From: Neolewinella litorea
GTDB taxonomy: Bacteria; Bacteroidota; Bacteroidia; Chitinophagales; Saprospiraceae
Length of the DNA: 64,000 nucleotides
Assembly (NCBI RefSeq): GCF_004803465.1
Contig: NZ_SRSF01000002.1
Location: 248,001-312,000 of the forward strand
Direction of reading: 5' to 3'
The number at the start of each line of letters is the position of its first letter. Within the stretch, counting starts at the first letter, position 1. This document shows positions 60,750 through 64,000 of this stretch, piece after piece. A program made the translations under genes and the position numbers. A model generated the notes under the pieces. It did not search any database. It saw nothing but the letters and a program-made list of their open reading frames with translations, and was not told the origin of the DNA.

Positions 60750-60926
60750 ATGTCTGAAATCAAGCATGCGGGTATCAAGGGCTACATCCTGCTCGGCGGC
60801 TTTATTGCCTTTCTGTTGTTCGTGATCCTGGTGGTTTACCTCTACAAGGCCAACCAGGCGTTCGTGCCCGAGCAGCCCGACCTGTACGGTCAGCTGCAGG
60901 CCGCGTTCACCTCGTGGTGGGCCTGA
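60750..60926 (+). CDS. Small single-span membrane protein (58 residues), overlapping lptC
   Basis: ATG 60750 to TGA 60926 encodes 58 residues. A charged start (MSEIKHAGIKG) leads into one membrane helix (about 12-32; YILLGGFIAFLLFVILVVYLY), then a short tail with FVPEQPDLYGQLQAAF. It has its own promoter element, and its last 13 bases overlap the GTG start of lptC, a sign of translational coupling. I do not recognise the family. Position suggests a role in lipopolysaccharide export or envelope assembly, but this is inference. Confidence 0.65.
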   Translation: MSEIKHAGIKGYILLGGFIAFLLFVILVVYLYKANQAFVPEQPDLYGQLQAAFTSWWA

Positions 60927-61459
60927 TCAGGTTATTGGTACTCTGCCTGCTGATTGCGGGCTGCGTGAACGACCCCGCCGAAGTGGCCCGGTTGGAGGAG
61001 ACCCTGGACGATCAGGTTGAACTAGCCGAAGGCGTCCAGATTCTGTACAGTGATTCCGCCCGGGTACGCCTCATCCTGGAGGCCCCGACGATGTACAACT
61101 ACCTGACTCCCTCCGACCCCCGGCAGGAGTTTCCTGATGGCGTGACCGCCTATTTTCTTGACGAGAATCAGGACACCAGCAGTACGCTGGTAGCGCAGCA
61201 CGGGGTGTACCGGCGGCGGAATAACCTGATCACCGTCCGCGACAGCGTGGTTTGGCAATCGGTAGACCAGCAACGACTGGAAACGGAGGAACTTAACTGG
61301 GACGAACAGCGCGAACTTATCTACACCAACAAATTCGTCGTCCTTACGCAGCCCGACTACATCATCACGGGATACGGCCTGGAAAGTGACCCCGGTTTCG
61401 CCAATGCCAGGGTACTGCAGGTTGACGGGCGCATACCTGTAAGCCGGCCGGCAAACTGA
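60914..61459 (+). CDS. lptC: LptC-like LPS export lipoprotein
   Basis: Periplasmic bridge component of lipopolysaccharide export. It has 181 residues with a GTG start at 60914 (GTG 60917 is also possible). Signal MVGLIRLLVLCLLIAGC gives a lipobox with Cys17, as in many Bacteroidota LptC proteins. The LptC fold shows VQILYSDSARVRLILEAPTM near the start, then LVAQHGVYRRRNNLITVRDSVV, beta-strand repeats of the OstA type, and IYTNKFVVLTQPDYIITGYGLESDPGF near the end. It follows the small membrane protein gene with overlap and precedes a LytTR regulator. Confidence 0.85.
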   Translation: MVGLIRLLVLCLLIAGCVNDPAEVARLEETLDDQVELAEGVQILYSDSARVRLILEAPTMYNYLTPSDPRQEFPDGVTAYFLDENQDTSSTLVAQHGVYRRRNNLITVRDSVVWQSVDQQRLETEELNWDEQRELIYTNKFVVLTQPDYIITGYGLESDPGFANARVLQVDGRIPVSRPAN

Positions 61460-61495: not shown

Positions 61496-62257
61496 ATGCT
61501 ACTTAACGCCGTAATCATTGAAGACGAACGTAAGGGACTCGTCAACCTCAAGCAAATGCTCAACCTCCACTGCCCTGACGTGGAGGTCATTGGCGACGCC
61601 GACGGCGTGAATACGGGCTGCGCTCTCTTCCAGCGCCCGGACATCAAGCCCGACGTGGCCTTTCTCGACATCAACCTCGGCGACGGGAAGGTCTTTCAGA
61701 TGATCGAGCGGATCCAGCCCATCGATTTTGACATCATCTTCGTAACGGCCTACGATCATTTCGCGATGAAGGCCTGCGAGTATTCCAGTATTGGTTACAT
61801 CCTCAAACCTATTGACCCCGACCGCCTCATCGAGGCCGTCTCGCGGGTGCGACCCCGGCAACTGGCCCGGACGGACGAGCGGCTGGAGGTGCTGCGCCAG
61901 TACCAGAACCAGCCCAATTCCTTCGAAAAGATGAGCATCGGGGGCGTCGACGGGATCCACTTCGTCAAGATCCGCGACATCATTCGCTTCGAGGCGGAGG
62001 ACAACTACACCCACATCTTCCTGAAAAACGGGCAGCGCATCACGGCTTCCAAGACCATCAAGCTGTACGAGGATATGCTGGCTCCCTTCAACTTCTACCG
62101 CGTCCACAAGCGGCACGTCATCAATATGAACTACATGAAGAAATTCGTGAAAGGAGAGGGCGGTTACCTGGTCATGGACGACGATATGCGTATCGAGGTA
62201 AGTCGCCGGCGGCGGGCGGCTTTTATGACGCAACTGCGAATGCTGCAAGAATTATAG
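61496..62257 (+). CDS. LytTR-family response regulator
   Basis: DNA-binding response regulator of 253 residues. The receiver domain (1-120) has the acidic pair IIEDER (9-12), phosphoacceptor Asp58 in VAFLDINL, conserved Thr in FVTAYD and Lys in YILKPID. The C-terminal LytTR domain (about 145-250) shows IRFEAEDNYTHIFLKNG, KLYEDMLAPFNFYRVHKRHVINMNYM and RIEVSRRRR. This layout is the usual partner of His_kinase-type sensors with an NPHFLYN motif, and such a kinase gene begins 300 bases downstream. The short peptide gene lies between them. Confidence 0.95.
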   Translation: MLLNAVIIEDERKGLVNLKQMLNLHCPDVEVIGDADGVNTGCALFQRPDIKPDVAFLDINLGDGKVFQMIERIQPIDFDIIFVTAYDHFAMKACEYSSIGYILKPIDPDRLIEAVSRVRPRQLARTDERLEVLRQYQNQPNSFEKMSIGGVDGIHFVKIRDIIRFEAEDNYTHIFLKNGQRITASKTIKLYEDMLAPFNFYRVHKRHVINMNYMKKFVKGEGGYLVMDDDMRIEVSRRRRAAFMTQLRMLQEL

Positions 62258-62276
62258 TTAACTTACACATATTGTA

Positions 62277-62284
62277 TACATTTG
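62277..62284 (+). promoter_or_regulatory. -7 promoter element of the peptide gene
   Basis: TACATTTG, full consensus, 90 bases before the ATG at 62375. The peptide and the kinase gene may be transcribed from here, separately from the regulator. Confidence 0.45.
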
Positions 62285-62374
62285 GAGCGTTCACTCCATA
62301 GGCCCACTTAAGCGGTTGTTCCGTCACGCGGATCGCCGCCCGTACATTAACCACGCACAAAGACACTCTTCCCC

Positions 62375-62524
62375 ATGGCGCAAAACGGGAAAAAAACAAT
62401 TGAGGAACTACGCAACGACCAGCAGGTGAAGGTGCTGGACCGCAACGCGATGGACCAGGTAACCGGCGGCAAGCGTCGCGGGCACTGGTTTCGGCGGGTT
62501 TGCGGCGGCATCATGCCCCAGTAA
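62375..62524 (+). CDS. Candidate double-glycine leader peptide (49 residues)
   Basis: ATG 62375 to TAA 62524. The leader (1-32) is hydrophilic, with EELRNDQQ, then a VLDRNAMDQVTGG stretch with Gly31-Gly32. This resembles the LxxxELxxVxGG end of bacteriocin and pheromone leaders cut by C39-peptidase ABC transporters. The core would be KRRGHWFRRVCGGIMPQ, 17 residues, strongly basic with one Cys. It has its own promoter and sits between a LytTR regulator and a TPR histidine kinase gene. No C39 transporter or modification enzyme is visible in the window. It is short, so a chance frame cannot be excluded. Confidence 0.6.
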   Translation: MAQNGKKTIEELRNDQQVKVLDRNAMDQVTGGKRRGHWFRRVCGGIMPQ

Positions 62525-62556
62525 GTCCAGTTCCCCCTACCGCAGTCAATCCTTCC

Positions 62557-64000
62557 ATGCCAAATCCGCAGGGCAATGTCCCGGAGCGGGACGAGGATCT
62601 CGAGCAGATTGAAGTCGTACGTGATCTGCTCACCGACTATGTCTATACCAAACCAAGGCTGGCCCGTGAACTACTAGAGCGGCAGCGCCGGCTGCTCGAC
62701 CTGCACGCACCCGACCTCGCCCGGCTGGAGCACCGCACCGGCCACGATTACCGCCTTGCCTACCACCTTCACCTCGCCAACCTCGAAAGCCAGGAATACC
62801 GGCACGAGGCGGCGGTTGCCCCCTTCCGCGCCGCCCTGGAGATCGCCGAACAGCGGGGCGACATCGCCGATCGCCTGGAAGTCTACCTGTCCTACACCGG
62901 CCACCTCAGCAACCTCGGCGAGATCGAAGCCGCCGGCGATTACCTGGAGCGCTGTCAGCGGTTACTCGAATCCTACCCCAGCGACCGCTTGAGCGCCCAC
63001 GCCGCCTGCCGCCACGGCTATCTCTACTTGCTTTTCTTCAGCTATCCGAAGGCCACGATGAAGTTCCTGGAAGCGGAAACCCTGCTGGAGGGCGGCACTT
63101 TCGAACTCACGCCCCAGGATCACTATTTCTACTCCCTGACGCAGTCGGGCATGGGCTCAATCTACCAGAACAGTGGAGAGAGCGAACTGGCGGTAGCGGC
63201 CTTCGTGAAGGCCATCCAACGCTGTGAGACCATCGGACTGCGCGCGCGCTTGCCCTGGCACCAGCTCAATCTTGGTAAGGAACTCATCAGCGGGGGCGAA
63301 TACCAGGAAGCTCTCTCCTACTTCCAGGCCGTTGTCGACAGTGCAGCCAACGGCTCCTCCCGCGCGCTGGCGGCCGCCTACGCCAATATGGGCTTCTGCT
63401 ACCACCACCTGGAGCAGCCCGAGCGAGCGAGCGGATACCTGGACCGCGCCGAGGAACTATACCGTAGCGAAGCGGAACCCGACCGGGTGGAACTGGCCAG
63501 CATCGGGTTTATGCGGGCTACCCTGCTGATGGATGCCGCGCGCTGGGAGAAGGCCATCGCTCAGCTGAACCAATCGCTGCCCGTGGCCCAAGTGGATGAG
63601 GAAACCAGCGACCCCCGCCTGCTCAGCATGGTGGCCGATGCCTACCTGTACCTTTCCGTTGCGTACTCCACCACCGGGGATTATGAGGCCGCCTACCACC
63701 ATCATTGCACCTACGACCATTACAACTTGCGCTTCCACAAGCAGATCGACATCCTGCGCCAACAGCAGTTTGCCGCGCAGTTCCGGGCCGAGGAGCGCGA
63801 ACAGGAAAACCGGCAACTGAAGTTGCGGGCCAGCCAGCTCAAGCTTAAGGCCCTGCGGGCGCAGATGAACCCCCACTTCCTCTACAATGCGCTTAACAGC
63901 ATCCAGTCGTTCATCTCAACCAACAACGCCGCGACGGCCAGCAAGCACCTGGCGAAGTTTGCCATGCTGATGCGCCAGAGCCTGGAATACGCCAACCGGG
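62557..64000 (+). CDS. TPR-containing sensor histidine kinase (partial, continues past window)
   Basis: ATG 62557, 33 bases after the peptide gene; 481 codons are visible and the frame is open at the window end. No signal or membrane helix is seen, so it should be cytoplasmic. Residues about 30-400 are helical tetratricopeptide-like repeats (for example AYANMGFCYHHLEQPERASGYLDRAEELY and VADAYLYLSVAYSTTGDYEAAYHHH). A coiled coil (about 400-433) leads to the His_kinase motif ALRAQMNPHFLYNALNSIQSF with His440. The ATPase domain lies beyond the edge. It is the probable partner of the LytTR regulator. Confidence 0.9.
   Translation, partial: MPNPQGNVPERDEDLEQIEVVRDLLTDYVYTKPRLARELLERQRRLLDLHAPDLARLEHRTGHDYRLAYHLHLANLESQEYRHEAAVAPFRAALEIAEQRGDIADRLEVYLSYTGHLSNLGEIEAAGDYLERCQRLLESYPSDRLSAHAACRHGYLYLLFFSYPKATMKFLEAETLLEGGTFELTPQDHYFYSLTQSGMGSIYQNSGESELAVAAFVKAIQRCETIGLRARLPWHQLNLGKELISGGEYQEALSYFQAVVDSAANGSSRALAAAYANMGFCYHHLEQPERASGYLDRAEELYRSEAEPDRVELASIGFMRATLLMDAARWEKAIAQLNQSLPVAQVDEETSDPRLLSMVADAYLYLSVAYSTTGDYEAAYHHHCTYDHYNLRFHKQIDILRQQQFAAQFRAEEREQENRQLKLRASQLKLKALRAQMNPHFLYNALNSIQSFISTNNAATASKHLAKFAMLMRQSLEYANR

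Follow-up and report, generated by a model that had tools for sequence, protein, structure and literature searches.

A candidate peptide-sensing module of a GG-leader peptide, a soluble TPR histidine kinase and a LytTR regulator in Saprospiraceae

We analyzed a 64,000-nucleotide stretch of the Neolewinella litorea genome (RefSeq assembly GCF_004803465.1, contig NZ_SRSF01000002.1, positions 248,001 to 312,000; hereafter the window), whose end carries a LytTR-family response regulator gene, a small peptide gene with a double-glycine (GG) leader and a TPR-containing histidine kinase gene. This arrangement, with the small gene between the regulator and a soluble TPR kinase, had been proposed in an earlier note on this DNA, and all three genes are present as described. 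The features of the locus are as follows.

61496..62257, + strand: LytTR-family response regulator, 253 amino acids, Pfam Response_reg and LytTR above cut-off
62277..62284, + strand: putative promoter element TACATTTG, fitting the presumed Bacteroidota -7 element TAnnTTTG
62375..62524, + strand: GG-leader peptide gene, 49 codons, stop codon TAA inside the coordinates
62375..62470, + strand: peptide leader, 32 codons, VTGG end, GG invariant in the family alignment A2
62471..62521, + strand: peptide core, 17 codons, KRRGHWFRRVCGGIMPQ, with C-terminal CGG[IMLV]xPQ motif
62557..64000, + strand: TPR histidine kinase, predicted soluble, 648 amino acids, running 503 bases beyond the window end

The peptide reads MAQNGKK...DQVTGG|KRRGHWFRRVCGGIMPQ, with a leader of 32 residues and a core of 17 residues containing one Cys. 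It is separated from the regulator by 117 bp and from the kinase by 32 bp; the kinase starts at the ATG at 62557, and its complete gene in the genome (L025:2557-4503) encodes 648 residues. Pfam assigns Response_reg (E = 2.5e-11) and LytTR (4e-18) to the regulator, and TPR_12 (9.9e-17) and His_kinase (6.6e-21) to the kinase, whose HATPase_c match (0.001) lies under its own cut-off. For the peptide, the sole Pfam match is a sub-threshold Bacteriocin_IIc hit (E = 0.084), and NCBIfam returned nothing at E <= 5. The closest named relative by regulator sequence is Neolewinella marina (96% identity).

The 49-codon open reading frame (ORF) is a real gene as judged from comparative sequence data, because it recurs in 17 of 21 genus genomes, is under purifying selection and has a family profile with matches in 67 of 150 genomes. 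Sixty relatives were searched, a check that had been suggested, and the peptide was recovered in those 17 genus genomes and in 4 of 39 others. Ratios of nonsynonymous to synonymous substitution (dN/dS, NG86 method), calculated between the window peptide and 12 of the other 16 copies in the genus, ranged from 0.034 to 0.145 in the 8 computable pairs, the remaining 4 being saturated at synonymous sites; substitutions across the 12 comparisons fall mostly at third codon positions, and the core shows dN of 0 with dS of 0.45 and 1.21 against its two closest relatives. In the A2 alignment of 43 family peptides GG never varies, and conservation reaches 90% or more at M1, Cys43, Gly44, Pro48 and Gln49. 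The peptide is absent from four genus members: G013 (100% complete), the one in which the kinase was also sought and was likewise not found, and G010 (55% complete), G018 and G019. Conservation in relatives, recurrence in 77 of 80 regulator-selected loci and the dN/dS values led us to drop the reading of a spurious ORF.

Beyond the genus, the peptide profile has matches (E <= 0.1) in 67 of 150 family genomes, which represent 54 of 112 genera when six weakly matching genomes are counted. Searches of the order (248 genomes) and the class (295 genomes) returned outside the family only weak matches, which cover mainly the leader and were excluded from membership; of 198 order genomes, 20 hold a full-length kinase, and every one of these belongs to the same family. 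When loci were selected by the regulator instead, 187 stretches were confirmed; among the 80 that scored best, some of them from near-identical genomes, 77 have a GG peptide downstream of the regulator. These 77 peptides carry GG in 77, a PQ end in 71 and a Cys within the last 12 residues in 67 cases, the PQ and Cys figures not being independent of the peptide profile that served to recognize them; three (L167, L177 and L198) score weakly (E 0.003-0.03) yet have both GG and the typical end. Among the three loci without a peptide, L149 belongs to genome G065, where peptide and kinase share a different contig.

Co-occurrence was then evaluated in a strict set of 61 genomes whose peptide match reaches profile position 43, setting aside G034, G111, G113, G120, G143 and G169, whose matches fall short of it; G034 and G120 were later found to carry diverged peptides. 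The kinase, the regulator (E <= 1e-90) and a C39 peptidase match are each present in 61/61 strict genomes, against base rates in the 150 family genomes of 77, 73 and 92, respectively; among all 67 profile-matched genomes the counts are 63, 64 and 65. The regulator threshold was picked after the matches had been inspected (85 genomes pass at 1e-70 and 73 at 1e-90). For the kinase, at most 8 candidates were scored in each genome, and 4 of the 77 matches are partial (G030, G123, G152 and G162). All three genes lie within 5 kb in 46 strict genomes. In 8, peptide and regulator are linked with the kinase elsewhere; in 4 (including G110, at a contig edge), peptide and kinase are linked and the regulator lies apart; in 3 (G082, G182 and G152), neither partner is linked to the peptide, the G152 peptide adjoining a kinase N-terminal piece. 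Peptide and kinase are thus linked in 50/61. Since co-occurrence is complete although 15 of the 61 are not fully linked, the association outlasts linkage. Where the kinase is distant from the peptide, as examined in 8 genomes, no peptide was found closer than 1.5 kb to that kinase. In ten genomes searched for the kinase, a single match per genome has E < 1e-200; the next match down is at 2.6e-75. A second weak peptide match in G008 (L024), inside a long ORF that appears amidohydrolase-like by eye, was dropped as chance.

The kinase is predicted to be soluble, because no 19-residue Kyte-Doolittle window exceeds 1.58 in any of 28 full-length homologues (usual transmembrane cut-off, ~1.6); the highest value in the window kinase is 1.04. 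A membrane-receptor kinase was rejected on the same 28/28 count. H440 in the NPHF box, N537, D569, G571 and G573 are invariant in the kinase alignment A4, as are receiver residues E9, D10, D58, T84 and K104 across 17 aligned regulators, so that the pair has the receiver and LytTR domains, phospho-acceptor Asp, His box and ATP-binding residues of a LytTR two-component system. The kinase matches the solved kinase 6swj at 1e-20, ends in the histidine kinase region and gave no helix-turn-helix match. Its AlphaFold2 model (pLDDT, the predicted local confidence, 87; pTM, the predicted template-modelling score, 0.67) displays a TPR superhelix followed by a long helix and the kinase core. Foldseek ranked LGN TPR domains best, followed by the peptide receptors Rap and NprR, peptide-bound structures among them, and by sequence the TPR part matched designed TPRs first and Rap3T at 3.7e-11. 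Such matches to a predicted model indicate the TPR fold, not the ligand. At the level of sequence, the data establish that three genes are present and conserved together, that the catalytic residues of kinase and regulator are intact, that the kinase has no predicted transmembrane segment and that two C39 exporters are encoded elsewhere in the genome.

Those exporters, which the earlier note had suggested seeking outside the locus, are two C39 ABC transporter genes that lie on contig C1 next to HlyD-family genes. Within the flanks of the 80 loci (up to 4 kb, often shorter), no match to the C39 N-terminal part was detected (0/80). The latter count bears on a quite unlikely alternative, in which the adjacent two-component pair governs production of the peptide as a toxic or bacteriocin-like effector and the kinase senses another signal. 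The GG leader, the basic core and weak matches (E <= 0.1) to Bacteriocin_IIc (4/43 members) and TIGR01847 (9/43) fit this explanation, and the sections consulted of a study of Bacteroidales describe GG peptides from bacteriocin settings and from those of ribosomally synthesized and post-translationally modified peptides (RiPPs) (PMC10352776). However, with a dedicated C39 transporter in 0/80 loci a bacteriocin operon was set aside; no recurrent immunity-like gene was noticed in the neighborhoods viewed, where no dedicated search was made. The C-terminus is largely uniform, dN/dS is 0.03-0.15, and the peptide co-occurs 61/61 with one particular kinase, unlinked cases included. Highly improbable is a TIGR04149-type precursor modified by a radical-SAM enzyme encoded elsewhere: weak TIGR04149 matches exist in 16/43 members (best 5.7e-5), but the window peptide has no NCBIfam match, and in a search covering the loci a CX3CX2C ORF of > 250 amino acids occurs in 1/80, where it looks RimO-type by eye. 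With this single maturase-like ORF, a radical-SAM RiPP was likewise set aside. The bacteriocin-like or modified product named earlier as an alternative is therefore less likely, given the lack of C39 genes beside the 80 loci, the single radical-SAM-like ORF, the largely uniform C-terminus and strong purifying selection.

Export can also be viewed from genomes that lack the exporter. A C39 match at E <= 1e-8 is missing from three genomes that have the kinase, namely G029 (87% complete), G068 (100%) and G172 (97%), and no GG peptide was found in any of them. In G068 and G172, which belong to one genus (g48), a kinase-adjacent ORF without GG ends in YCGVSTPQ and YCGTTTPQ, respectively, and its frame from a shared ATG is maintained across gaps of 3 and 18 bases. 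These ORFs were identified by place, end and mutual likeness, their profile scores being weak (0.13 and 0.0022; a G172 score of 2.1e-6 is circular, its own sequence then being in the query), and the G068 kinase frame is interrupted by one TAA. We read the sequences as a genus, represented by two genomes, in which the leader has gone with the exporter while the C-terminal motif is kept beside the kinase. One SBP_bac_5 oligopeptide-binding protein occurs in each of 10/10 genomes searched, the C39-less pair included, so uptake would be possible.

This genus is central to a rival explanation that we consider unlikely, namely that the module monitors export: unexported peptide would bind the TPR kinase in the producer, C39 would drain the peptide, and the kinase would read synthesis against export, as is the case for an exported regulator. 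Such a device works without import or a receiving neighbor and agrees with a kinase lacking a predicted transmembrane segment, with the motif ORF still beside the kinase in g48 in the absence of a GG leader, and with the absence of C39 genes within the loci. Its basis, however, is one genus and two genomes, one with a TAA in the kinase frame and a weakly scored ORF; import is possible in g48, because an Opp-type binding protein is encoded in both genomes; and some genomes hold extra, unlinked motif peptides.

We lean instead towards the peptide being a ligand or regulator of the TPR kinase, because its end is conserved, it is partnered with one soluble TPR kinase and the partnership persists without linkage; the three genes would then probably constitute a peptide-sensing two-component module. 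Peptide and kinase would be transcribed from a promoter in the regulator-peptide gap, and a C39 ABC exporter would cut after GG and export the 17-residue core. The C-terminal CGGIxPQ end may act as the ligand by binding to the concave side of the TPR superhelix in the cytoplasm. It could get there before export or, an Opp-type binding protein being encoded, by re-uptake. Binding would alter autophosphorylation of His440 and phosphotransfer to Asp58 of the regulator, which in turn might govern the peptide-kinase operon and further targets. The C39-less genus and the soluble kinase favor an intracellular encounter, whereas the GG leader and the C39 correlation favor export. A wider proposal, which we put forward tentatively and with less confidence, is that of a family-wide peptide language in Gram-negative Saprospiraceae, in which an RRNPP-like TPR receptor is built into a cytoplasmic histidine kinase, the conserved carboxyl end serves as the key, and the ligand may act intracellularly and independently of export.

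Several observations weigh against the reading as a peptide-sensing module. The co-occurrence counts ignore shared ancestry. The G068 ORF, with its score of 0.13, was not returned by the genome search and is recognized by its place and its likeness to G172. Opp-type proteins are common and give no proof of import. The resemblance to Rap and NprR is generic, as LGN ranks higher and designed TPRs lead by sequence. With TPR A and B helices labeled by hand, conserved polar residues up to residue 345 are more frequent on A helices (14/117 vs 4/113, p = 0.025), which counts for the reading as a weak sign of a conserved groove; over all repeats, however, the figures are 15/137 and 7/148 (p = 0.074). 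Sixteen kinase-positive genomes fall outside the strict set. In favor of the module, 10 of them (G034, G070, G091, G101, G103, G114, G120, G153, G163 and G173) were seen by flank inspection to hold a diverged GG peptide beside the regulator or kinase, but only 4 of these 10 peptides end in PQ, the rest ending in KQ, KQ, PL, PS, PH and QP. The strict member G139 ends in PMPR. The peptide C-terminus is therefore conserved, not invariant. G105 has only a tentative unlinked peptide; none was found by flank inspection in G162 (80% complete), nor in G029, although regulator and kinase are adjacent there. In G121, whose genome has C39, the ORF between regulator and kinase (L227:1114-1312) ends in RCGDLLPH without GG.

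Two further groups of peptides were observed. Extra motif peptides at L068:3952-4117 (CGGIIPQ), L073:2817-2997 (CGNIVPQ), L078:3961-4132 (CGGMIPQ) and L081:3979-4114 (CGGIMPS) have no regulator or kinase match in the stretch examined, and their genomes also hold a regulator-linked copy; several ligands for one kinase would be a possible explanation. A divergent subtype between regulator and kinase (L153, L160, L167, L170, L175, L177, L179, L180, L188 and L198) contains a hydrophobic segment; its ends include CLGDLPQ, CQGELPQ and CDGDLPL, and it possibly represents a second specificity type.

The regulator-peptide gap contains a recurrent element. TANNTTTG is found in 54 of 77 such gaps (mean 10.4 and maximum 19 in 200 mononucleotide shuffles) and, by eye, in 12 of 17 genus gaps. 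Its match in the window, TACATTTG, is likely the promoter of peptide and kinase, given its fit to TAnnTTTG, which we take to be the Bacteroidota -7 promoter consensus. A CGGY-N17-YGGY direct repeat with a 21-bp period, present in 11/77 gaps against 0.4 by shuffling, may be a LytTR binding site. We do not rely on it, because 7 of the 11 gaps belong to one Neolewinella subclade and because in genus gaps it sits downstream of the -7 element. The closest relative, L124, is without the repeat. The repeat-bearing gaps, homologous to 62258-62374, are L129-L132, L134-L136, L144, L150, L156 and L183.

The organization invites comparison with known systems. In Firmicutes, GG pheromones act with LytTR two-component systems, as in ComC-ComD-ComE, BlpC and PlnA. 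As in ComCDE, a GG-leader peptide with expected C39 ABC export shares a locus with a histidine kinase and a LytTR regulator; unlike ComCDE, whose receptor is a polytopic membrane kinase, the kinase here is cytoplasmic with TPR repeats, the C39 exporter is unlinked and the host is Gram-negative. The ComC/ComD parallel drawn in the earlier note is accordingly partial: a GG peptide beside LytTR two-component genes (77/80) bears it out, but the kinase differs in not being a membrane receptor. A ComC homologue (PF03047/NF033214) was also rejected, the window peptide having no match and 2/43 members matching weakly (best 0.0085 in Pfam, 0.0062 in NCBIfam). As in the RRNPP family (Rap, NprR, PlcR, PrgX and Rgg), a cytoplasmic TPR receptor lies beside a small peptide gene and the ligand is expected in the concave groove; RRNPP receptors, however, are themselves the DNA-binding or phosphatase effector, whereas this kinase would signal to a separate LytTR regulator, and RRNPP peptides use Sec or PptAB export instead of a GG leader. 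The kinase and regulator families are those of Bacteroidota TPR-His_kinase/LytTR pairs. Kinases of such pairs usually have a transmembrane helix after the TPRs; the module kinase lacks it and is accompanied by a peptide. By analogy, the module resembles a hybrid of the ComCDE and RRNPP designs and is a member of neither, since ComCDE needs a membrane receptor and RRNPP a receptor that is the effector.

In the literature, the portions consulted describe RRNPP systems in Firmicutes and place peptide signaling in Gram-positive bacteria (PMC10075063, PMC9765709). Bacteroidota GG precursors also occur in Bacteroidales RiPP clusters, some with histidine kinase/response regulator or TPR genes, as described in the cluster section of PMC10352776; the nine clusters there differ from the module in carrying modification enzymes, with a peptidase-containing ABC transporter (PCAT) in 7/9, and a GG peptide flanked by a LytTR regulator and a soluble TPR kinase is not mentioned in that section. 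In the portions consulted of the closest papers (PMC10352776, PMC8895600, PMC10075063 and PMC9765709), the module is not described. A search of the open-licence PubMed Central literature, preprints lying outside its scope, returned no description of a peptide-TPR kinase-LytTR module and no case in Bacteroidota where a two-component system reads a defined peptide signal, in keeping with the earlier statement that no Bacteroidota system of this make-up was known. The checks suggested in the earlier note that were run, namely conservation in relatives, dN/dS and a C39 transporter outside the locus, all turned out in its favor. The peptide-signaling interpretation itself is upheld for parts, linkage and conservation, not for the full ComC/ComD parallel, and signaling is what we infer from them; together they suggest that these marine Saprospiraceae have a form of Gram-negative peptide sensing that is so far undescribed. 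If true, two Firmicute designs, the GG pheromone with LytTR and the intracellular TPR receptor, would be joined in one pathway. With a short synthesizable candidate ligand, a purifiable soluble receptor and a regulator with a nearby promoter, the module makes Gram-negative peptide sensing directly testable.

Minor features were recorded around these genes. One of the two C39 transporter genes (L026:5548-8888) comes after an HlyD-family gene and is followed by small ORFs, one with MSKQELRSTFGGFTP, possibly a separate GG-peptide cluster. The locus is neighbored by an LptC-like gene (window 60914-61459) and an ion-channel gene (L025:4567-5379, Ion_trans 1.5e-34), neither with an evident link to the module. 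Beyond the window, L025:13546-14092 holds a cluster of 29-170 nt direct repeats, including an 84-nt tandem unit with 91% matches, and inverted arms.

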